Assembly (NCBI RefSeq): GCF_015500095.1
Contig: NZ_CP062983.1
Coordinates: forward strand, 4,216,001-4,280,000
Source: Phototrophicus methaneseepsis
GTDB lineage: Bacteria > Chloroflexota > Anaerolineae > Aggregatilineales > Phototrophicaceae
Length of the DNA stretch: 64,000 nt
Direction of reading: 5' to 3'
Shown here: piece after piece, positions 48,695-57,995 of the stretch
How the letters are laid out: the number at the start of each line of letters is the position of its first letter
Numbering within the stretch: the first letter of the stretch is position 1
The notes under the pieces: generated by a model
The model's input: only the letters and a program-made list of their open reading frames with translations
Told to the model about the DNA's origin: nothing
The model's database searches: none
Translations under genes and position numbers: made by a program

Positions 48695-49402
48695 ATGCCA
48701 GGATTCCAATACAGCCAGGTCATTGCGAGGGATTTCCCACAAGTTGTGGGTGGGGTTATCTACGCAACAGGATTAAGCAATGGACCAAGCTCAACGGCCC
48801 TACTCGCTCAATATCACCAGGAGCAGCAAGCAACACTTGAGCGCATTGGCGATACGCCGCTTAGCGAACGCCCTAGCCTTGCCGCATGGCGAGCAGCCTT
48901 TCGCCAGTTCAATGTGGACCCGACCAAATACCGTAACGCTGCGGAGGCCCTCCTGCGCCGCCTGACCAAGAAAGGCGATATCCCCAGCATCAATATGCTG
49001 GTTGATATAGGTAATATGGTCGCTATTCGTTATGCTCTGCCCATCGCCATGATCGATATCGGCGCTCTACAGGACAGCATTACCGTGCACTATAGTGATG
49101 GTACAGAATCCTTCATCGACCTGGGCAGTGATGAGCCTGTACAACCTGAAGCCGGAGAAGTCATCTTCACCGATGCCGCAAATACAGTCTATGCTCGGCG
49201 CTGGTGCTGGCGGCAGAGTGCCCACAGTGCCGCCCGTTCCAACACACAGGACATCCTCATCACGATAGAAGCCCAACATGAATATGGTCGCCAGGATGTT
49301 GAAGCCGCCTTGATAGACATCCGTGATTTACTCGCCCAACACACCACAGCAACGACACAATTTGCCATACTAGACAGCCAAATTACCCAAACCCCATGGT
49401 AA
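48695..49402 (+). CDS. B3/B4 tRNA-binding-domain protein
   Basis: Protein of 235 aa matching the stand-alone B3/4 domain found in phenylalanyl-tRNA synthetase beta and in free-standing proteins. Typical segments: FRQFNVDPTKYRNAAEALLRR, then GDIPSINMLVDIGNMVAIRYALPI and the DxGSDEP-x-x-GEV turn. The family has suspected roles in aminoacyl-tRNA editing or amino acid binding, but no settled function. ATG 48695 follows TGGAG, 3 nt after the MFS stop. It directly precedes the lysine leader region. Confidence 0.85.
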   Translation: MPGFQYSQVIARDFPQVVGGVIYATGLSNGPSSTALLAQYHQEQQATLERIGDTPLSERPSLAAWRAAFRQFNVDPTKYRNAAEALLRRLTKKGDIPSINMLVDIGNMVAIRYALPIAMIDIGALQDSITVHYSDGTESFIDLGSDEPVQPEAGEVIFTDAANTVYARRWCWRQSAHSAARSNTQDILITIEAQHEYGRQDVEAALIDIRDLLAQHTTATTQFAILDSQITQTPW

Positions 49403-49455
49403 ACTATACAATCTGCACAAACAAAATCGGCTATATTTTATGATAGCAATTCCCG

Positions 49456-49483
49456 ATGACAGTGTTTAGACTATTGGCATAGT
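49456..49483 (+). promoter_or_regulatory. Possible promoter of the lysine operon
   Basis: ATGACA (49456-49461), 16 bp, CATAGT (49478-49483). Matches are moderate, but the predicted start near 49490 would place leader peptide 1 about 30 nt into the transcript, as expected for an attenuator. Confidence 0.35.
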
Positions 49484-49520
49484 CAAATTTCCGGGCATTG
49501 CGTGCCCAGAGGAAATAACA

Positions 49521-49565
49521 ATGCTCGTAGCAATCAGCAAGAAGGCAAAGAAGACGAACCACTAA
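49521..49565 (+). CDS. Lys-rich leader peptide 1 of the lysine operon
   Basis: A 14-aa open frame, MLVAISKKAKKTNH, with AGAGGAAA positioned 5-6 nt before its ATG. Lys codons are at positions 7, 8, 10 and 11 (49539-49553), 4 of 14 residues. It is followed by a competing pair of RNA structures and an intrinsic terminator. This arrangement (Lys-codon cluster, stop, terminator, lysine operon) is that of a ribosome-mediated attenuator sensing charged tRNA-Lys. Confidence 0.78.
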   Translation: MLVAISKKAKKTNH

Positions 49566-49568
49566 CCC

Positions 49569-49624
49569 GTGGGCGTTTTGCTTTCTCGCTAGCCGAGCAA
49601 AAACAGACAAGCAGACCCGCCCAC
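49569..49624 (+). promoter_or_regulatory. Antiterminator structure 1
   Basis: GTGGGCG (49569-49575), 3 nt after the leader stop codon, is perfectly complementary to CGCCCAC (49618-49624), which overlaps the 5' arm and loop of the terminator. A nested hairpin (TTTTG...CAAAA with CTCG/CGAG inside, 49576-49602) brings the arms together. A ribosome stalled on the Lys codons leaves 49569-49575 free; one at the stop codon covers it. Confidence 0.7.
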
Positions 49625-49638
49625 ACGGCGGGTTTTTT
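49615..49638 (+). terminator. Attenuator terminator 1 of the lysine operon
   Basis: CCCGCC (49616-49621), 5-nt loop, GGCGGG (49627-49632), then six T; one extra A-T pair closes the base. It stands between leader peptide 1 and leader peptide 2, with no full-length gene before it apart from the B3/4 gene 210 bp upstream. Confidence 0.85.
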
Positions 49639-49683
49639 GTTTGTCAGATACAGTCAACATAAAGATACATGTAGGGAATCATC

Positions 49684-49752
49684 ATGCAGCACTTATTCAT
49701 CGACACCAAAAAGCAGAAGAAGGCAAAGAAGCCAGACAGACGTCCTGGATAA
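49684..49752 (+). CDS. Lys-rich leader peptide 2 of the lysine operon
   Basis: A 22-aa open frame with TAGGGA upstream of its ATG. Lys codons at positions 9, 10, 12, 13, 15 and 16 (49708-49731) give KKQKKAKK; two Arg codons follow at positions 19-20, then Pro-Gly-stop. Bases 49717-49731 are identical to 49539-49553 in leader 1, pointing to duplication. It is followed by its own antiterminator and terminator. Confidence 0.8.
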   Translation: MQHLFIDTKKQKKAKKPDRRPG

Positions 49753-49795
49753 TTGTGCTGCGCGAAATTCGCTTGCCCAAGCCGCCATCCAGGAC
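49742..49795 (+). promoter_or_regulatory. Antiterminator structure 2
   Basis: GTCCTGGAT (49742-49750), covering the last leader codons, is a perfect 9-nt complement of ATCCAGGAC (49787-49795) at the top of the terminator's 5' arm. A ribosome paused in the Lys block would leave the first segment free to pair and so block the terminator. A ribosome on the Arg codons or at the stop would mask it. Confidence 0.72.
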
Positions 49796-49816
49796 ACCTG
49801 CGATGGCGGCTTTTTT
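49779..49816 (+). terminator. Attenuator terminator 2 of the lysine operon
   Basis: An 11-bp stem (49779-49789 with 49802-49812), topped by a further CAGG/CCTG pairing, followed by T residues to 49816. It ends 57 nt before lysW. Very stable by inspection. Confidence 0.9.
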
Positions 49817-49873
49817 GTTGGACAAACACGCTGAACGACTGTAAACCCAATTCATCAAGAGAGGCTACACAAA

Positions 49874-50047
49874 ATGGAACGCACAGTAACTTGTATTGAA
49901 TGCGATGGCGAAGTCAGCATCCCCGCGGATGCCATGGAAAACGAATTGATCGTCTGCCCGGAATGCGGCACCGAACTGGAAATTGTCAGCCTGGACCCGC
50001 TTCAAGTCGAGCTGGCGCCAGAAGTTGAAGAAGATTGGGGCGAATAA
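49874..50047 (+). CDS. lysW: LysW amino-group carrier protein
   Basis: Small acidic zinc-ribbon protein of 57 aa that carries aminoadipate and its derivatives on its C-terminal Glu. Two CxxC pairs (Cys7/Cys10 and Cys28/Cys31) would bind zinc, and the C-terminus is exactly EDWGE, the hallmark on which LysX acts. ATG with GAGAGG upstream. First structural gene of the lysine operon, 2 nt before lysX. Confidence 0.96.
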   Translation: MERTVTCIECDGEVSIPADAMENELIVCPECGTELEIVSLDPLQVELAPEVEEDWGE

Positions 50048-50049
50048 TC

Positions 50050-50928
50050 ATGCAGATCGCAGTCCTCGTTACACACATTCGCGCTGAAGAAAAACTGCTG
50101 ATCAATGCTTTTGCAGAAGCAGGTATCGAGCCAGATATCATTCTGGACCGCGACATCAATATCAATCTGACGGCGGGCGCTCAGCAGCAAGCCCCCTCAG
50201 GCCGCCCCTGGGCAGATTACGATCTGGTCCTGGAGCGCTGCGTGAGCACATCGCGCGGCCTGTACCTGCTGGCAATTCTCAATCGGTGGGGCATTCATAC
50301 CATCAACACCTATGAGACAGCCGCCATCTGTGCCGACAAATTGCAGACGACCCTCGCGCTGGCAGATGCAAACGTCGCACAACCTGCTTCGCGCGTTGCC
50401 TTCACACCAGAAACAGCACTCCAGGCTATTGAGCGCGTCGGCTATCCGGCGGTCCTTAAACCCACAACAGGGTCCTGGGGGCGCTTACTGGCCCGCGTCA
50501 ACGATAGCGATAGCGCAGAGGCCATCATCGAGCATCGCCAGACACTCGGTGATTACAATCACCATACATACTACGTGCAATCTTATGTCAACAAACCCGG
50601 TCGTGACATTCGCGCTTTCGTCATCGGTGGGCGTACGATCTGCGCCATCTATCGCAGCTCCGAGCATTGGATCACCAACACAGCACGAGGCGGCAGCGCC
50701 ACCAACTGCCCTATCACGCCAGAATTAGATGACATTTGCCAGCGCGCGGCTACAGCCGTCGGCGGCGGTATCCTGGCTATTGATGTGCTAGAAGACGCCA
50801 ATGGCGAACTGCTCATCAATGAAATCAACCACACCATGGAGTTCCGTAATAGCAGTATGCCGACAGGCGTTGACATCCCGGCGGAAATTGTCCGTTACGC
50901 TCTGGCCCAAATCGAGGTGTTGGCATGA
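50050..50928 (+). CDS. lysX: Alpha-aminoadipate--LysW ligase
   Basis: ATP-grasp ligase of 292 aa (RimK-like) that joins the amino group of alpha-aminoadipate to the gamma-carboxyl of the LysW C-terminal Glu. GYPAVLKPTTGSWGRL carries the ATP-binding Lys; NTARGGSA and LLINEINHTMEFRNS are family motifs, the latter with metal ligands. An in-frame TTG at 50035 is ignored in favour of ATG 50050. Specificity for aminoadipate rather than glutamate is inferred from the adjoining homocitrate synthase and homoaconitase genes. It overlaps lysY by 4 nt. Confidence 0.94.
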   Translation: MQIAVLVTHIRAEEKLLINAFAEAGIEPDIILDRDININLTAGAQQQAPSGRPWADYDLVLERCVSTSRGLYLLAILNRWGIHTINTYETAAICADKLQTTLALADANVAQPASRVAFTPETALQAIERVGYPAVLKPTTGSWGRLLARVNDSDSAEAIIEHRQTLGDYNHHTYYVQSYVNKPGRDIRAFVIGGRTICAIYRSSEHWITNTARGGSATNCPITPELDDICQRAATAVGGGILAIDVLEDANGELLINEINHTMEFRNSSMPTGVDIPAEIVRYALAQIEVLA

Positions 50929-51950
50929 TACAAGCTGGTATTGTCGGTGGCAGTGGCTACACAGGCGGCGAACTCCTGCGTCTGCTGCACTTCCATCCAC
51001 AAGTTGAGGTGACACAGATCACCAGCCGGGAGTACACGGGGCGTTACGTCCACACAGTACATCCCAATATGCGCGGCGTCTCTCGCCTCCAATTCATCCA
51101 CCCGGATGCATTGGAGCCATGTGATGTGCTCTTCTTGGCGCTGCCCCATGGCACCACCGCCCGCAATATCGAGCATTATGCCTCGCTAGCCCCCCGCATC
51201 ATAGACCTATCGGCAGATTTCCGGCTGCGAGACACAGCCACTTATGAGCATTGGTATGGTCAGCCGCACCCGGCACCAGAGTGGATTGATCGCTTCGTCT
51301 ATGGCCTGCCAGAGTTCAACCGCGAGGCCCTGCGCGGCGCGAATTATGCCAGCGGCGTCGGCTGCAATGCCACAACGATGAATTTAGCCCTGCGCCCCCT
51401 GGCAGAAGCCCATTTATTAGAGCGTGTCAGTGCGGAACTCAAAGTTGGCTCATCAGAAGGTGGCAACAGCGCCAACGCAGGCAGCCATCATCCCGTTCGC
51501 AGCGGAGCAGTGCGAACCTATAAAGCCACTGGGCATCGCCATATGGCAGAGGTCCAGATGATGCTTGGGGAAGATGTCCCCGTGAGATTCAGCGTGACGG
51601 CCATTGAAATGGTCCGCGGCGTGCATTTGCTGGCCCACTGCGACCTGACAGAACCCATGACAGAAAAGGACGTCTGGCGGCTTTATCGCGCAAGTTATAA
51701 CGATGAGCCTTTTGTGCGACTGGTGCGAGAACGTAATGGCTTGCATCGTCTGCCGGAGCCACGCATCGTCGCTGGCACCAACTATTGTGACATCGGCTTT
51801 GAACTAGATGACGATGGCCGCCATCTGGTGCTCATCGCCGCACTAGATAACCTGGGCAAAGGGGCCGCTGGCAGCGCCGTCCAGTGCATGAACCTCATGC
51901 ACGGCTTTGACGAGTGCGATGGCTTGCAATTCCCTGGCCTGTATCCCTAA
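50925..51950 (+). CDS. lysY: LysW-aminoadipate semialdehyde dehydrogenase (phosphate reductase)
   Basis: NADPH-dependent reductase of 341 aa, ArgC-related, that reduces the LysW-bound acyl phosphate to the semialdehyde. Nucleotide-binding GIVGGSGYTGGELLRLL at the N-terminus; the catalytic Cys is in SGVGCNATTMNLAL. ATGA overlap with lysX, so the two are translationally coupled. Confidence 0.94.
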   Translation: MIQAGIVGGSGYTGGELLRLLHFHPQVEVTQITSREYTGRYVHTVHPNMRGVSRLQFIHPDALEPCDVLFLALPHGTTARNIEHYASLAPRIIDLSADFRLRDTATYEHWYGQPHPAPEWIDRFVYGLPEFNREALRGANYASGVGCNATTMNLALRPLAEAHLLERVSAELKVGSSEGGNSANAGSHHPVRSGAVRTYKATGHRHMAEVQMMLGEDVPVRFSVTAIEMVRGVHLLAHCDLTEPMTEKDVWRLYRASYNDEPFVRLVRERNGLHRLPEPRIVAGTNYCDIGFELDDDGRHLVLIAALDNLGKGAAGSAVQCMNLMHGFDECDGLQFPGLYP

Positions 51951-51968: not shown

Positions 51969-52799
51969 ATGAACCCAACGACACAAACAAACACCGCCAT
52001 TGAAAATATTCTCGTCGTCAAGCTGGGTGGTGGCGCGGGCCTCGATATTGAAGCCGCCTGCGCAGATTTAGCCCAGCTTGCCCAAACACGGCCTGTCGTC
52101 GTTGTCCACGGCGTCAGCGAAGCCATGGCCCAACTGTGCGAAGAGCGCGGCGTCCCGGTAGAGACATTAACCTCGCCCAGCGGCCATAGTTCGCGCTATA
52201 CGCCGCCTGCCACCCGCGATTTATTCGTGGAGGCTGCGCAGGGCGTCAACGATACGATTGTGCATGAATTACGCAGCCATGGGATTTATGCCATCGGTCT
52301 GACGCAAGAAATCGCCATCCAGGGCGAACGCAAAGCTGCAATCCGCGCTGTCGTCAGTGGGCGCATCCGCGTGGTGCGCGATGATTACAGCGGCAGTATT
52401 ACCGGCGTCAACGCAGGGCCAATCTGGGAAGCGCTCAGCGCAGGACGCGTAGCCGTGTTGCCGCCCCTGGCAGCCAGCGAAGATGGCTTGCTCAATATTG
52501 ATGGAGACCGTGCTGCGGCAGCACTTGCGGGGGCGTTGGGGGCCACCGACTTGGTCATTCTCAGCAATGTAGCTGGCCTGATGCGTGACCATACCAACAC
52601 CGATACGCTCATTCAGCAGGTCACGGGCAGCGATATGGACCGCGCGATGAACTACGCCCAGGGCCGCATGAAACGCAAAGTCCTGGGGGCACAAGAAGCT
52701 TTAGAAAATGGCGTGCGTCGCGTCACCATTGGCGATGGCCGCACACAATCACCCATTGCAAACGCGCTCAACGGCGCAGGAACGGTATTCACACGATGA
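51969..52799 (+). CDS. lysZ: LysW-aminoadipate kinase
   Basis: Amino acid kinase of 276 aa, ArgB-related, that phosphorylates the side-chain carboxyl of LysW-bound aminoadipate. VVKLGGGAGLD at the N-terminus; the ATP site includes NIDGDRAAAALAGALGATDLVILSNVAGLM and the GRMKRKVLGA segment. TGAGGAG precedes the ATG at 51969. It overlaps lysJ by 4 nt. Confidence 0.94.
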   Translation: MNPTTQTNTAIENILVVKLGGGAGLDIEAACADLAQLAQTRPVVVVHGVSEAMAQLCEERGVPVETLTSPSGHSSRYTPPATRDLFVEAAQGVNDTIVHELRSHGIYAIGLTQEIAIQGERKAAIRAVVSGRIRVVRDDYSGSITGVNAGPIWEALSAGRVAVLPPLAASEDGLLNIDGDRAAAALAGALGATDLVILSNVAGLMRDHTNTDTLIQQVTGSDMDRAMNYAQGRMKRKVLGAQEALENGVRRVTIGDGRTQSPIANALNGAGTVFTR

Positions 52800-53992
52800 T
52801 CGACACACACGAAAACACCGCACTCCAAGACATCGTCGCCCTGGAAGAAGCACACACATCCGGCGTGTATCCAAAACGCCCACTGGCGATTATACGCGGC
52901 CAGGGCTGCACCGTATGGGATGCGGACGGACAAACCTACTTAGACGCAACCAGCGGCCAGGGTGTCGCGTTGCTAGGGCACAGTCACCCGGCGGTCGCAG
53001 AAGCGATCAGCCAGCAAGCCCAGACGCTCATCACCTGCCCGGAAATTTTCTACAATGATCAGCGTGCTGCACTGTATGAACAACTGAGCAGTGTGCTCCC
53101 TGATGAATTAGACCGCTACTTCCTATGTAACAGCGGTGCGGAAGCCATTGAAGGCGCGCTTAAAGTCGCCCGCCTGCTGACGAACCGTACCGGCATCGTT
53201 GCGACGATGCGCGGCTTCCACGGTCGTACACTTGGCGCGCTCTCGCTGACGTGGAGCAAAACCTACCGTGAGCCTTTCGCGCCGTGGCAGCCGGAAGTCA
53301 ACCATATTGTCTTCAATAATATCGAAGCGGCATCCGATGCCATCACAGAAAATACTGCCGCCGTCGTTGTAGAAGTCGTCCAGGGCGAAGGCGGCGTCTA
53401 CCCTGCTGATGCTGATTACCTGCAAGCCCTGCGCCAGCTCTGCACAGAACGTGGTGCCCTGCTCATCATTGACGAAATACAAACTGGCTTTGGCCGCACT
53501 GGGCGCTGGTTCGCCTTTGAACATGCCGGCATCGTACCGGACGTTATTGCTATGGGTAAAGGCATCGCGGGCGGGGTTCCAATGGGCGCTGTCGCTTGGC
53601 GCGGTGAACTCGGCACCCTGGCGAAAGGCGCGCATGGCAGCACATTCGGCGGAAATCCATTAGCCAGCGCCGCCGCCGTCGCAGCTATGGGTGCCATGCG
53701 CGATCAAAATCTGCCACAGCGCAGCGCGGAGTTGGGTGCCTGGCTGCTGGAAGAGTTAAATAGCAGAGATTTACCCGGTGTACGGGAGATACGCGGCCTC
53801 GGTTTGATGATCGGCATTGACCTGCGCATCCGCGTGACGCCCGTCCTCCAAGCTCTGCAAGATCATGGTGTATTGGCGCTGCCCGCTGGTAAAACGGTCC
53901 TGCGCCTATTACCGCCACTGATCATCACACAGGATGAACTGCTGCGCATCGTTGAGGCCATCCAACTCGCTTTACAGGAGGCGACCGCATGA
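52796..53992 (+). CDS. lysJ: LysW-lysine aminotransferase
   Basis: PLP-dependent class III aminotransferase of 398 aa, ArgD-related, that aminates the LysW-bound semialdehyde to LysW-lysine. PLP-binding features: NSGAEAIEGALKVAR, the DEIQTGFGRTG motif and the Schiff-base Lys in AMGKGIAGG. Starts in an ATGA overlap with lysZ and ends in an ATGATG overlap with lysK. Confidence 0.94.
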   Translation: MIDTHENTALQDIVALEEAHTSGVYPKRPLAIIRGQGCTVWDADGQTYLDATSGQGVALLGHSHPAVAEAISQQAQTLITCPEIFYNDQRAALYEQLSSVLPDELDRYFLCNSGAEAIEGALKVARLLTNRTGIVATMRGFHGRTLGALSLTWSKTYREPFAPWQPEVNHIVFNNIEAASDAITENTAAVVVEVVQGEGGVYPADADYLQALRQLCTERGALLIIDEIQTGFGRTGRWFAFEHAGIVPDVIAMGKGIAGGVPMGAVAWRGELGTLAKGAHGSTFGGNPLASAAAVAAMGAMRDQNLPQRSAELGAWLLEELNSRDLPGVREIRGLGLMIGIDLRIRVTPVLQALQDHGVLALPAGKTVLRLLPPLIITQDELLRIVEAIQLALQEATA

Positions 53993-55053
53993 TGCCGCTG
54001 CAAACCTCAACAATCACAGACGAAGCTGCCGAGACCTTGCTGCATAACCTGGTCGCAACGCCAAGCCAATCCACACAGGAGAGCGCCGCTACCAGCTACC
54101 TCACCCATTGGATGAATCAGCATAGTTATGATGAGGCCTTCGTTGATGAAGCAGGTAACGCGATCGGCATTATTGGCAGTGGCAGCCGTGATGTGATCCT
54201 GCTGGGGCATATTGATACGTTCAGTGGCAATCCACCCGTACACGTCAATGGCCGCAATCTATATGGGCGCGGTAGTGTCGATGCCAAAGGGCCCCTGGCA
54301 ACGTTCGCCGCAGCGGCCCGCCGTGCCAAATTAGCCGAAGACGTCCGCGTAATCGTCATCGGGGCTGTGGAAGAAGAAGCCGCCAGCAGCAAAGGCGCTC
54401 GTTATGCCGCGACCCAGTATCAGCCTGAGTTTTGCATCATTGGGGAGCCTTCTCAATGGGACCGCATGACGTTGGGCTATAAGGGCCGCTTGCTGATTGA
54501 CTGGCGTTGGGAAGGCGCACTCGCACACAGTGCAGGCGATGTTGCCAGCGCCCCGGAACAGGGATTTGCTTATTGGCGGCGCGTAGTTGACTATACGAAT
54601 ACTTTCAATGGGGATGAAACGCGCATTTTTGGCCGCCTGGACGCGACACTACAGGCCATCAACAGCGGCATCCATGGCGCACATGGTTGGTGCGATGTCA
54701 CTGTGGGCTTTCGCCTGCCACCTTCGGCAGACCCGCATGCCATCGCCGCAGATTTAGAAGACGACAATGCCACGACCCGTGCCTATGGGCATGAAGTCGC
54801 CTTTTTAGCAGATCGTGACACATCCCTTGCGAGAGCTTTCCGGGGTGCAATCCGAGCCAACGGGGGAACGCCCCGTTTTGTCCACAAAACAGGTACCAGC
54901 GATATGAATATCGTCGGCCCGTTGTGGAACTGCCCAATCCTGGCTTACGGGCCCGGAGATTCCGCACTCGACCATACACCGGACGAGCACATCAATTTTG
55001 ACGAATATCTGCGTGCGATTGACGTGTTAGTCGCCGCCCTGGAACGCCTTTAG
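53989..55053 (+). CDS. lysK: LysW-lysine hydrolase
   Basis: M20-family metallopeptidase of 354 aa that releases lysine from LysW. Metal ligands and catalytic residues: GHIDTF, GRGSVDAKGPL (bridging Asp), and EEEAASSKGA (catalytic Glu pair); a His ligand lies near the C-terminus (LDHTPDEHI). The start could be either of two adjacent ATGs (53989 or 53992). Confidence 0.93.
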   Translation: MMPLQTSTITDEAAETLLHNLVATPSQSTQESAATSYLTHWMNQHSYDEAFVDEAGNAIGIIGSGSRDVILLGHIDTFSGNPPVHVNGRNLYGRGSVDAKGPLATFAAAARRAKLAEDVRVIVIGAVEEEAASSKGARYAATQYQPEFCIIGEPSQWDRMTLGYKGRLLIDWRWEGALAHSAGDVASAPEQGFAYWRRVVDYTNTFNGDETRIFGRLDATLQAINSGIHGAHGWCDVTVGFRLPPSADPHAIAADLEDDNATTRAYGHEVAFLADRDTSLARAFRGAIRANGGTPRFVHKTGTSDMNIVGPLWNCPILAYGPGDSALDHTPDEHINFDEYLRAIDVLVAALERL

Positions 55054-55066
55054 GAGCGAGTTCATC

Positions 55067-56221
55067 ATGCCTTTGCATAACTTCCATATTATCGAAAGTA
55101 CCTTGCGAGAGGGTGAGCAGTTCAGCACAGCCACCTTCACCACCGCCCAAAAAATTGAAATCGCCACCCTGCTGGATCAATTCGGCGTAGAAATGCTGGA
55201 GATGACCTCTCCCTGCGCTTCACCCCGTAGCGAAGCCGACATCCGTGCAGTCCTGGCGGAAAATCTTAATCTACGCGTCCTGACCCACGTCCGCTGCACG
55301 CGCGAAGATGCTCAGCGCGCCATTGATACCGGCGTTCATGGTGTCGATATCGTGATTGGCACCTCCCCCCAATTGATGACGCACAGCCACGGCAAAGACA
55401 TCCGCCAGATTATCGACCTGGCCGCTGATGTACTCTCTTTCGTACGGGAACAAAGCCCGGATATTATCCTGCGCTTTAGCACGGAAGATAGCTTTCGCAG
55501 TAGTGAGGCCGACCTGATGCGCGTTTACCTGGCTATTGCGGATCTGGGACTTGTCAACCGCCTGGGTATCGCCGATACCGTCGGAGTCGCCATGCCAAGC
55601 CAGGTCTGGCGGCTGGTGAACCAGCTTGTACGTATGACGGGGCTGGATATTGAGTTCCACGGTCATAATGACAGCGGATGTGCCATCGCTAACGCGGCCG
55701 CCGCGCTTGAAGCTGGGGCTACGCACGTCGACACAACCGTTTTAGGCCTGGGTGAGCGTAACGGCATCACGCCGCTGGGTGGTTTGATTGCACGCTTGTA
55801 CACGCTCAACCGCGATTACGTCAGCCGCTACAATTTACCTCTGCTGCCACAAATCGACCGTCTCATCGCAGATATTTGCCAATTGGACATTCCATTTAGC
55901 AACTACATTACGGGTTCAAGCGCGTTTACGCATAAAGCAGGCATCCACGCCAAAGGCGTCCTGGCAGACCCGGAGACTTATGAAGCAATCAATCCAGGGG
56001 ACTTCGGCTTGACGCGTGAGATCAGCATCGGCCATCACCTAACGGGCTGGAATGCTGTGCGCAACCGGGCGCAATCGCTTGGCCTCAACCTCGATGATCA
56101 GACGCTGCGCGCCATCACACAGACCATTAAACAGCAGGCTGATGATAACGCACTCACACCGCAAGAGATTGACGACCTGCTGATGGAAGCCAGCTTGCAA
56201 ACAGCCGGAGGCCTTGCATGA
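55067..56221 (+). CDS. lysS: Homocitrate synthase
   Basis: DRE-TIM metallolyase of 384 aa that condenses 2-oxoglutarate and acetyl-CoA, the entry step of the aminoadipate pathway. The catalytic ESTLREGEQ is at residues ~9-17, the metal site EFHGHNDSG supplies the HxH, and [12 protein letters not shown] is typical of homocitrate and isopropylmalate synthases. The context with lysT/U and LysW genes favours homocitrate synthase. There is no separate ~100-aa LeuA regulatory domain, so feedback control would have to occur within the catalytic fold as in Thermus-type enzymes. AGGAG precedes the ATG. Confidence 0.9.
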
Positions 56222-57504
56222 GTGGCCTTACCTTTGTCGAAAAAGCGCTAGCACGTGCTGCTGGCGTCGCAGAAGCCCACGCGGGCGATGTGCTGGACGT
56301 CACGCCGGATCTCATCTTCAGCCATGATAACAGCGCGGCAATCCGGCGCATATTCCTTGAAACAGGCTTTGAACGGATTGCACGGCCAGACCGCATTGCG
56401 ATCACACTCGACCACGCGGCCCCGGCCCCAACCACACAGCACGCTCAGAACCATGCGGAAATCCGCGCCTGGGTACGGGAACAGAGCATCGCTCATTTCT
56501 TTGAAGTTGGGCGTGGCATCTGCCATCAGGTCATCAGTGAAGAAGCTTTAATCCTACCGGGCGAAGTGATCCTCGGTGCGGATAGCCACAGCACACATTT
56601 TGGCTGGTTAGGGGCCTTCGGCATGGGGGTTGGTCGTACAGAAATGGCCGCCCTATGGGCGACAGGCCAGCTCTGGCTGCAAGTGCCGGAATCCATGCGC
56701 ATCACTTTGACGGGTCAATTCCAACCAGGCGTGACCACCAAAGACCTGGCCCTCTACATCCTGGGACGCTGGGGCGCTGACGGAGGCCAATACCGCGCCC
56801 TTGAATTTACAGGCGACGCGATCCGCACCCTATCGCTGGATCAACGTGCATCGCTGCCAAATATGATGGCTGAATTCGGTGCTATGAGCGCTTATATGCA
56901 CCCGGACCAAGCCATCTTCGATTATCTCGCATCCAACCAGCAGCGCGATTATACGCCCCTCTATCCAGATGACGATGCCATTTACAGTGATGACCACACC
57001 ATAGATCTCTCATCACTGGAGCCACAAATTGCCCTGCCACATAACCCTGATAACGTCGTAACGCTCTCAGAAGTCTTGGGGCGTCCGGTACAGCAGGCAT
57101 TCATCGGCACCTGCACCAATGGCCGCTATGAAGACCTCGCTGCGGCGGCAGAAGTCCTGCGCGGTCAGCACGTCGTCGTACGGACCATCATCATACCTGC
57201 CAGCCGCGACGTGCTCTTGCGCGCCACAGAAACAGGCGTCCTGCAAACACTTATCGAAGCAGGAGCCACCATCAACACACCGGGGTGCGGCCCCTGTATG
57301 GGCAATCATCTGGGCATCCCAGCACCAGAAGAGGCCACCATCAGCACAGGTAACCGCAACTTCCGGGGGCGCATGGGCACGCGCGAATCCGATATTTACC
57401 TGGCGAATCCAGCCGTTGTAGCCGCCAGTGCCATCACCGGGCAGATTACTGCACCACAAACAATCCTGAACAACAATGCCAATCTGCAAGGAGCCAGCTT
57501 ATGA
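56218..57504 (+). CDS. lysT: Homoaconitase large subunit
   Basis: Iron-sulfur dehydratase large subunit of 428 aa (LeuC/LysT family) that acts with LysU on homocitrate and homoaconitate. Cluster ligands: [10 protein letters not shown] (one Cys) and TPGCGPCMG (two Cys). The [11 protein letters not shown] motif is present. ATGA overlap with the synthase and again with lysU. LeuC is the alternative by sequence, but context supports LysT. Confidence 0.9.
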
Positions 57505-57995
57505 GCACCCATCGTGTCTGGGTTTATGGCGATCATGTCAATACAGATGTGATCTTCCCCGGTAAATTCACATATACACTCAAAGACCCGCAAGCAATGG
57601 CTGACGTCGCCTTACAAGACCTGGACCCGACCTTTGCGTCAGAGGTCCAGGAAGGTGATGTTATTGTAGCCGGGCGCAATTGGGGGTGTGGCAGCAGCCG
57701 CGAACAAGCTGTGACGGCGCTCAAATATAATGGCATCCGCATCATTATCGCGGAGTCTTTTGGCGGCCTGTACTTCCGCAATTGCATCAACCAGGGCGTC
57801 CACCCCATTGTCTGCCCTGGGCTGGTAGCACACCTCCAGACAGGGGATACCATCGAGATTGATCTGGAAGAAAACGCCATCATCGCTGGCAATACGGTCT
57901 ATCGTATCCCCTCACTCTCCTCCACAGTACAGGCAATCCTCCAGGCAGGTGGGCTGGTGCCCATGTTACAGCGCAGGACAGGGCGACTTGCTTAA
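57501..57995 (+). CDS. lysU: Homoaconitase small subunit
   Basis: Swivelling domain subunit of 164 aa (LeuD/LysU family). The substrate-determining loop is at [18 protein letters not shown], and the conserved [13 protein letters not shown] follows near residue 55. Last gene of the operon; about 230 nt of non-coding sequence precede the next gene and no clear terminator follows. Confidence 0.9.

Follow-up and report, generated by a model that had tools for sequence, protein, structure and literature searches.

Two predicted tRNA-Lys-reading attenuators in series before the LysW-type lysine operon of Phototrophicus methaneseepsis, and their counterparts in relatives

The whole LysW-type lysine operon of Phototrophicus methaneseepsis is very probably gated by two ribosome-mediated transcription attenuators that stand in series and both read the charging of tRNA-Lys. 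The operon lies in a 64,000-nt stretch of contig NZ_CP062983.1 (the window; positions are counted from its first letter), and the source genome is a single contig of 5.63 Mb. An initial annotation had read the leader as two serial tRNA-Lys checkpoints, and this reading is supported by the anatomy of the leader, its conservation and covariation in relatives, the modelled geometry of the ribosome, the operon context and the repetition of the arrangement where the operon is split.

Between the end of the upstream gene (49402) and lysW (49874), the elements follow one another in the order leader 1, antiterminator strand 1, terminator 1, leader 2, antiterminator strand 2, terminator 2. The features are:

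49456 to 49483, plus strand: promoter-like site ATGACA-16-CATAGT with TG before the -10 (consensus match 9/12), candidate start of the leader transcript
49508 to 49513, plus strand: SD-like AGAGGA of leader 1, from the sequence
49521 to 49565, plus strand: leader ORF 1, MLVAISKKAKKTNH and stop, type I; 14 codons with 4 Lys, all AAG; Lys cluster conserved
49569 to 49575, plus strand: antiterminator strand 1, GTGGGCG; perfect complement of 49618-49624, with covariation
49614 to 49638, plus strand: intrinsic terminator 1 (hairpin 49614-49634, U-run 49633-49638), from folding and sequence
49673 to 49677, plus strand: SD-like AGGGA of leader 2, a weak SD, from the sequence
49684 to 49752, plus strand: leader ORF 2, MQHLFIDTKKQKKAKKPDRRPG and stop, type II; 22 codons with 6 Lys, 5 of them AAG; conserved
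49742 to 49750, plus strand: antiterminator strand 2, GTCCTGGAT, spanning the final codons and stop of leader 2; cognate test
49779 to 49816, plus strand: intrinsic terminator 2 (hairpin 49779-49812, U-run 49811-49816), from folding; stem kept, with some compensatory changes

The promoter scan was a consensus match only and carries no weight as evidence of function. Recomputation found both annotated Lys-rich mini-ORFs (4 Lys in 14 codons; 6 Lys in 22), each with its SD-like site, in place, and sequence and folding agreed on an intrinsic terminator after each. The perfect 7- and 9-nt complementarity to the terminator 5' arm or loop was likewise exact: strand 1 pairs with CGCCCAC at 49618-49624 and strand 2 with ATCCAGGAC at 49787-49795, and in the window sequence neither helix extends further. 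Because helix 2 crosses the lower stem of terminator 2, the two could form together only as a pseudoknot. Terminator 2 folds as a strong hairpin (z about -4); a consensus terminator scanner reported terminator 1 and missed terminator 2, presumably because an interrupted stem falls outside its stem and loop rules. About 40 nt separate U-run 1 from leader 2. The leader contains two of the features of a leader-peptide attenuator, a Lys-codon ORF with an SD-like site, whose translation is predicted, and a terminator before the first gene. Immediately 5' of the leader 1 SD, a small hairpin (GGGCA-ttgcg-TGCCC, 49493-49508) was seen by eye. The gene before the leader (48695-49402, 235 aa) is co-directional with the operon and has a weak match, far below the model cut-off, to the phenylalanyl-tRNA synthetase beta chain.

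Profile matches downstream of both attenuators gave the following genes:

49874 to 50047, plus strand: lysW, carrier protein and first operon gene (TIGR01206, above cut-off)
50065 to 50928, plus strand: lysX (TIGR02144, above cut-off)
50925 to 51950, plus strand: lysY, ArgC-like reductase (TIGR01850, argC, above cut-off; named lysY by its place in the operon)
51969 to 52799, plus strand: lysZ, [LysW]-aminoadipate kinase (NF010659, above cut-off)
52796 to 53992, plus strand: lysJ, aminotransferase (best match NF042418, LysJ, below its cut-off; TIGR00707 above cut-off)
53989 to 55053, plus strand: lysK, [LysW]-lysine hydrolase (NF003367, above cut-off)
55067 to 56221, plus strand: homocitrate synthase, hcs (TIGR02146, above cut-off)
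56218 to 57504, plus strand: homoaconitase large subunit, hacA family (TIGR01343, above cut-off)
57501 to 57995, plus strand: homoaconitase small subunit, hacB/leuD family (TIGR02087, above cut-off)

The annotated LysW operon is borne out by these matches: the gene set is that of LysW-type lysine synthesis, and lysWXYZJK-hcs-hacAB covers the greater part of the alpha-aminoadipate pathway of lysine synthesis. Elsewhere in the genome, an additional kinase gene, ArgB-like (32% identity), belongs to a separate argC-argB-argD-argJ-like cluster (L294, 2721-6956; names from translations), and no terminator-like hairpin was found in about 900 nt upstream of the first gene of that cluster. The lysW operon is therefore probably for lysine alone, and the LysW-type genes downstream, together with the separate arg cluster, make lysine the sensible signal.

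We propose that transcription would begin 5' of leader 1. When lysine is plentiful, a ribosome translating the leader would reach the leader stop and cover the antiterminator strand, and the terminator would form. With charged tRNA-Lys scarce, it would stall in the AAG cluster and leave the strand free to capture the terminator 5' arm or loop, so that polymerase could pass. After U-run 1, leader 2 would repeat the test, so the operon would be made only when both gates are open. Lysine limitation should then raise read-through, and two gates should sharpen the response, as their read-through probabilities would multiply.

The ribosome was taken to cover 13 nt, counted from where its A-site codon begins. 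A study of Salmonella mgtCBR gives a footprint of 12-15 nt from the P site, close to the 13-nt value used here (PMC3641672). By coordinates, a ribosome with stop codon 1 in its A site covers exactly to 49575, the last base of strand 1, and one stalled on the final Lys codon of leader 2 stops short of 49742, where strand 2 begins. The initial annotation had proposed folding the RNA with and without a ribosome at the leader stop. In our model the stalled ribosome freed the strand and the ribosome at the stop masked it. The modelled probability of terminator 1 was 0.00 with the ribosome stalled at the last Lys codon, 0.93 at the first Lys codon, 0.94 at the stop and 0.97 with no ribosome; the number of terminator nucleotides captured before the 3' arm emerged was 8.9, 8.9, 1.6 and 1.4, respectively. 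For terminator 2 the equilibrium value was 0.94-0.97 in every ribosome state, and the nucleotides captured upstream before the 3' arm emerged numbered 13.1 with a stall at the last or first Lys codon, 3.5 at the stop and 10.4 with no ribosome. Because terminator 2 wins at equilibrium in all states, attenuator 2 would have to act kinetically, with the antiterminator forming first.

The same comparison was made for 82 representative units. A stall at the last Lys codon gave at least 4 nt more capture than a ribosome at the stop in 69 of them, a gain of 0 to 4 nt in a further 12, and a loss of 2.1 nt in one, this sole and slight reversal being the downstream unit of L021; with a stall at the first Lys codon, one of the 82 was reversed by at least 4 nt. 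The mean equilibrium terminator value fell only from 0.94 to 0.74, with a drop of at least 0.3 in 23 units and such a rise in none. Part of the gain at the last Lys codon is the mere exposure of more RNA; the gain was 8.1 nt for a unit's own segments vs 4.2 nt for segments swapped in from other genera and 4.2 nt for shuffled ones, the own segments being better in 75/82 and 73/82 cases, respectively.

We scanned both strands of the window for GC-rich hairpins of -9 kcal/mol or lower before a T run, and for leaders that end no more than 115 nt upstream and have at least 4 Lys within 7 codons. Terminator-like hairpins numbered 25 on the plus and 47 on the minus strand. Exactly two of them had a Lys leader, those described here, and the scan showed no further Lys-leader attenuator pair in the window. 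In 500 dinucleotide shuffles of 49403-49873, a Lys leader with a terminator never arose. The complementarity taken alone is a modest signal (shuffled spacers reached 7 nt in 68/2000 and 9 nt in 4/2000). A reading of the leaders as chance ORFs was rejected on the 0/500 shuffles and on the restriction of the hits in the window to these two.

The two-checkpoint reading had been staked beforehand on Lys-rich frames being conserved in relatives. We found Lys clusters, terminators and co-varying antiterminators retained by a large part of the order and by some of the wider class. LysX was present in 87/98 genomes of the family, 120/154 of the order and 275/396 of the class sample. The order loci comprise 119 of the 120 LysX genomes (G064 was left out), all with a lysW-like frame upstream of lysX; beyond the order, 40 new class loci from 23 families were taken, which represent only part of the LysX-positive class genomes. 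An attenuator was scored where at least 3 Lys in 7 codons occurred with a terminator. Among the 159 lysX-linked loci, 35 had no attenuator, 74 had one and 50 had two, so that at least one was present in 124. The window's family, f1, had 33 tandem, 51 single and 2 empty loci among 86; 14 of its 22 genera had a tandem locus, and genus g17 had a single attenuator in all 34 loci. Elsewhere in the order, tandem pairs occurred in f3 (9/11), f8 (2/7) and f7 (1/11, with eight f7 loci having none), and in 0/4 loci of f2. The 40 class loci included 5 tandem (f21, f35, f37 and f39), 10 single and 25 without, where L140, L141, L145 and L165, having no lysW by pattern, were scored zero; L031 and L145 end at a contig edge. 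The automatic criterion erred in L011 (scored single despite two units), L010 (one of two leaders seen) and L110 (terminator misassigned). More pairs (e.g. L203, L214, L215 and L236) were present among 49 separately scanned genome loci, L201-L249, kept outside the 159; L170-L200, largely duplicates of loci already counted, were left out. Relatives that keep, lose or repeat the predicted double gate indicate that it is real.

The two positions are occupied by different types of unit. In the upstream unit, type I, the leader is short and closes shortly after KKAKK, and the antiterminator strand either follows the stop or spans it. In f1 the downstream unit, type II, has a leader of the form KKxxKKP..SG and stop, with the strand TCTGGAT within its last codons. 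With one unit per genus (28 each; each further class family counted as one group), the median spacing from stop to terminator was 46 nt upstream vs 29 nt downstream, and the hairpin energy was -16.6 vs -24.5 kcal/mol. In the ribosome-free fold of attenuator 1 the antiterminator strand was covered by leader codons, so an untranslated leader should terminate. Type II strands were more often free in such folds in f1, with a slight difference when all 28 were compared with 28 (p 0.04). Since spacing, hairpin energy and strand exposure differ between the types, the upstream and downstream units look like two designs for one input, not one recent duplication.

Pairing between antiterminator and terminator was specific to each unit. 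The duplex energy of cognate vs swapped partners was -17.3 vs -12.2 kcal/mol for the upstream copy and -20.5 vs -15.3 kcal/mol for the downstream copy (28 genera or family groups each), and -18.2 vs -13.8 kcal/mol for single units (26 groups), an advantage of 4.5-5.2 kcal/mol; none of 2000 permutations reached the real cognate mean in any of the three sets. The initial annotation had also proposed aligning the leader across relatives for covariation, and this gave compensatory changes at 6 of 8 pairs in 23 leaders. From a MAFFT alignment of all 23 type I segments, made without structural guidance, RNAalifold picked the antiterminator helix, with changes on both sides in 3 of its 4 pairs. This helix was also recovered from a 14-row subset (both-side changes at 3/6 pairs), with a slightly unfavourable covariation term (+0.2). 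Over 8 helix pairs in the 23 rows, 84.8% of cells were paired vs 75.6% in shuffles (0/500 as high), 23 cells had both sides changed vs 8.6 (0/500), and the 6 pairs with both sides changed compared with 3.8 (5/500). The covariation score was 0.402 vs 0.221 in shuffles (0/500) and at most 0.132 when the helix was slid by 1 to 3 columns; the two outermost pairs were broken in 9/23 and 8/23 rows. The mutual exclusivity of antiterminator and terminator is thus kept by compensatory change. By eye, GTGGGCG pairs with CGCCCAC in L002, GTTCGGGC with GCCCGAAC in L020, GAGTGCGGGC with GCCCGCACTC in L028, and ATGGGC with GCCCAT in L019. In a type II alignment (9 of 17 segments), the structure that RNAalifold picked was the terminator rather than the antiterminator. 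By eye, the type II strand TCTGGAT of L027 and L008 resembles the terminator 5' arm and does not complement it; it could compete for the 3' arm, as an inverted variant of the switch, although in L008 the model still finds capture.

A second gated operon was found within the family. The 98 family genomes were searched with a covariance model for each type of unit, R1 for type II and R2 for type I, which had matches in 34 and 82 genomes, respectively. In five genomes (G022, G009, G027, G024 and G008) both models matched together at a second locus, directly before hcs-hacA and away from lysW. These tandem loci are L295-L299; the type I unit of G024 is truncated by the contig end, and the contig of G027 ends within hacA. 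In G078 and G081 one type I unit stands before hcs; with the single loci L300 and L301, seven genomes in all have Lys attenuators of its own before an hcs that starts an operon. Some of the hcs-locus leaders have only 3 Lys. Among 20 other hcs starts, nine followed immediately on frames that by eye resemble lysJ or lysK, three, from g19, had a terminator preceded by a leader with just 2 Lys (KAEKR), and eight, from f7, which mostly has no lysW attenuators either, had no Lys-rich leader with terminator near the gene. The identity between lysW- and hcs-locus attenuators was 75-88% for every pair, in a gap-permissive alignment that is uninformative on copying. A type I match in the source genome (5,597,182-5,597,275, E 0.006) and type II matches in G008:C61 and G075:C22 had no Lys-rich leader with terminator and were treated as chance. 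The remaining extra matches were cross-matches between the unit models or antisense, at places already counted.

Against the serial arrangement stands the reading that a second promoter lies between the terminators, so that attenuator 2 is the sole control of a second transcript and the gates are parallel. We consider this improbable. The gap it would have to occupy is short: from U-run 1 to start codon 2 the median over the 50 tandem loci is 27 nt, no more than 40 nt in 37 of them and down to 12 nt (one value, -73 in L110, stems from the misassigned terminator). Furthermore, the consensus scan of the window showed no plus-strand promoter-like site between the terminators, though such a scan is blind to unusual promoters, and a promoter could overlap terminator 1. 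The lower average strength of terminator 1 relative to terminator 2, given above, would fit a parallel arrangement.

It would be similarly surprising if the two serial attenuators sensed different things, with leader 2, for example, reading arginine as well as lysine. Two Arg codons do occur near the end of the window's leader 2 (DRRPG), and L084, L085, L101 and L112-L117 have WRR-like endings. However, these codons lie in or beside the antiterminator strand and are explicable by pairing (by eye GGCGATT/AATCGCC and TCTGGA/TCCAGA), most listed f1 type II leaders have no Arg run, and the arg cluster is separate, with no attenuator-like hairpin before it. Arginine sensing was rejected on the pairing and on the separate cluster.

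It is very unlikely that the leaders encode small basic proteins, or are ORFs that arose by chance, with hairpins that serve merely to terminate the upstream gene twice. Two strong terminators could indeed shield lysW from the gene ending at 49402, but the peptides vary outside the Lys cluster and the pairing nucleotides co-vary, the modelled ribosome geometry fits attenuation, and the pairs recur where hcs starts an operon of its own; double insulation was rejected on these grounds. Sensing by a riboswitch or T-box in place of a translated leader has a negligible probability and was rejected for the window, even though T-boxes do precede lysW in Ktedonobacteria, since no Rfam family reached its cut-off in the window except a distant tRNA, there was no match to RF00230 or to an Rfam lysine family, and the eight matches up to E 5 in 49400-49880 were far below cut-off, none being a T-box or lysine riboswitch.

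The T-boxes of Ktedonobacteria (group set by record titles; Tengunoibacter, Dictyobacter, Ktedonobacter, Ktedonospora, Thermogemmatispora and one MAG were sampled) were unexpectedly doubled as well. The Rfam T-box model matched twice upstream of lysW in 10 of 11 loci (L210, L213, L218, L226, L228, L230, L243, L244, L247 and L249); the eleventh, L245, had one weak match, and its record holds only 530 bases before lysX. Two of the 20 matches were above the curated cut-off and the other 18 had E 1e-10 or better. AAG was found by eye at the specifier in 20/20, at the position as model-aligned in L230. In this other class of the same phylum, the matches point to what is a similar double gate by another mechanism. 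An uncultured Thermomicrobiaceae MAG (L239, 867-1122) has one T-box, GAAGAAGGCC (AAG), upstream of lysX, and no lysW by pattern.

AAG also dominates the leaders, with 102/117 Lys codons in upstream, 103/117 in downstream and 83/106 in single units. In the window leaders (49539-49731) the share is 9/10 vs 14/58 in 13 window genes (Fisher p 1.3e-4). Among the 45 tRNA matches of the genome, tRNA-Lys(CUU) and tRNA-Lys(UUU) are represented by a single gene each. Either an earlier drop in the charging of the CUU tRNA or better pairing of AAG within the leader hairpin may account for the preference.

The his, trp, leu and thr leader attenuators have a run of regulatory codons, an antiterminator and terminator that exclude each other, and a strand masked by the ribosome at the stop. 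The units of the window share this design; those attenuators are usually single, whereas here there are two. The three Rfam leader models that matched in the window stayed far below cut-off (Phe_leader 18.9 vs 55, Trp_leader 17.3 vs 41, Thr_leader 16.5 vs 55). A leader-peptide attenuator of the Thermus thermophilus lysine cluster was reportedly described by Tsubouchi et al. in about 2005. It is reported to be a single attenuator whose leader ORF likewise carries Lys codons and precedes lysine genes of the LysW type; the window has two in series, and some relatives have a second set before hcs. For Salmonella mgtCBR, tandem attenuators that serve different signals have been described, and their authors regard the case as singular (PMC3641672). 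There too, a single leader combines two attenuators with two short ORFs, and one of the attenuators reads charged tRNA, but mgtM reads ATP and mgtP proline, and the hairpins are unlike intrinsic terminators, whereas both window units have Lys leaders and intrinsic terminators (PMC3641672). The Lys clusters in both leaders, in the window and in tandem relatives, argue against two signals of the mgtCBR type, insofar as they predict the input. Tandem T-boxes and other contiguous riboswitches are known and, like the window, place two like sensors in series before one operon (PMC12452182). T-boxes bind tRNA directly and need no ribosome, whereas the window units are predicted to be ribosome-dependent.

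Among the literature matches listed, two attenuators for the same amino acid in series are unreported, an absence of little weight as coverage was mostly open-access, and so is leader-peptide attenuation of lysine synthesis in Chloroflexota. Leader attenuation and two-signal tandem attenuators are thus known; what appears to be new, as judged from sequence, is a series of same-signal attenuators that is conserved and repeated on a second operon.

If so, leader-peptide attenuation of lysine synthesis would extend to many Chloroflexota, and the phylum would offer a conserved natural case of two serial attenuators with the same predicted input, in which what serial attenuation buys (leak, sharpness, noise) becomes testable. 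Related genera with zero, one or two gates, some with a second pair before hcs, make a ready comparative series. The tandem T-boxes before lysW in another class suggest that the double gate itself has been selected. More broadly, we regard it as an evenly balanced question whether the Chloroflexota LysW operon has been selected for two serial tRNA-Lys gates, reached independently by leader attenuators and by T-boxes with an AAG specifier; on that proposal the doubling, with its very low leak and multiplied, near-quadratic response, and not the chemistry of the sensor, would be what is conserved, and both solutions favour AAG.
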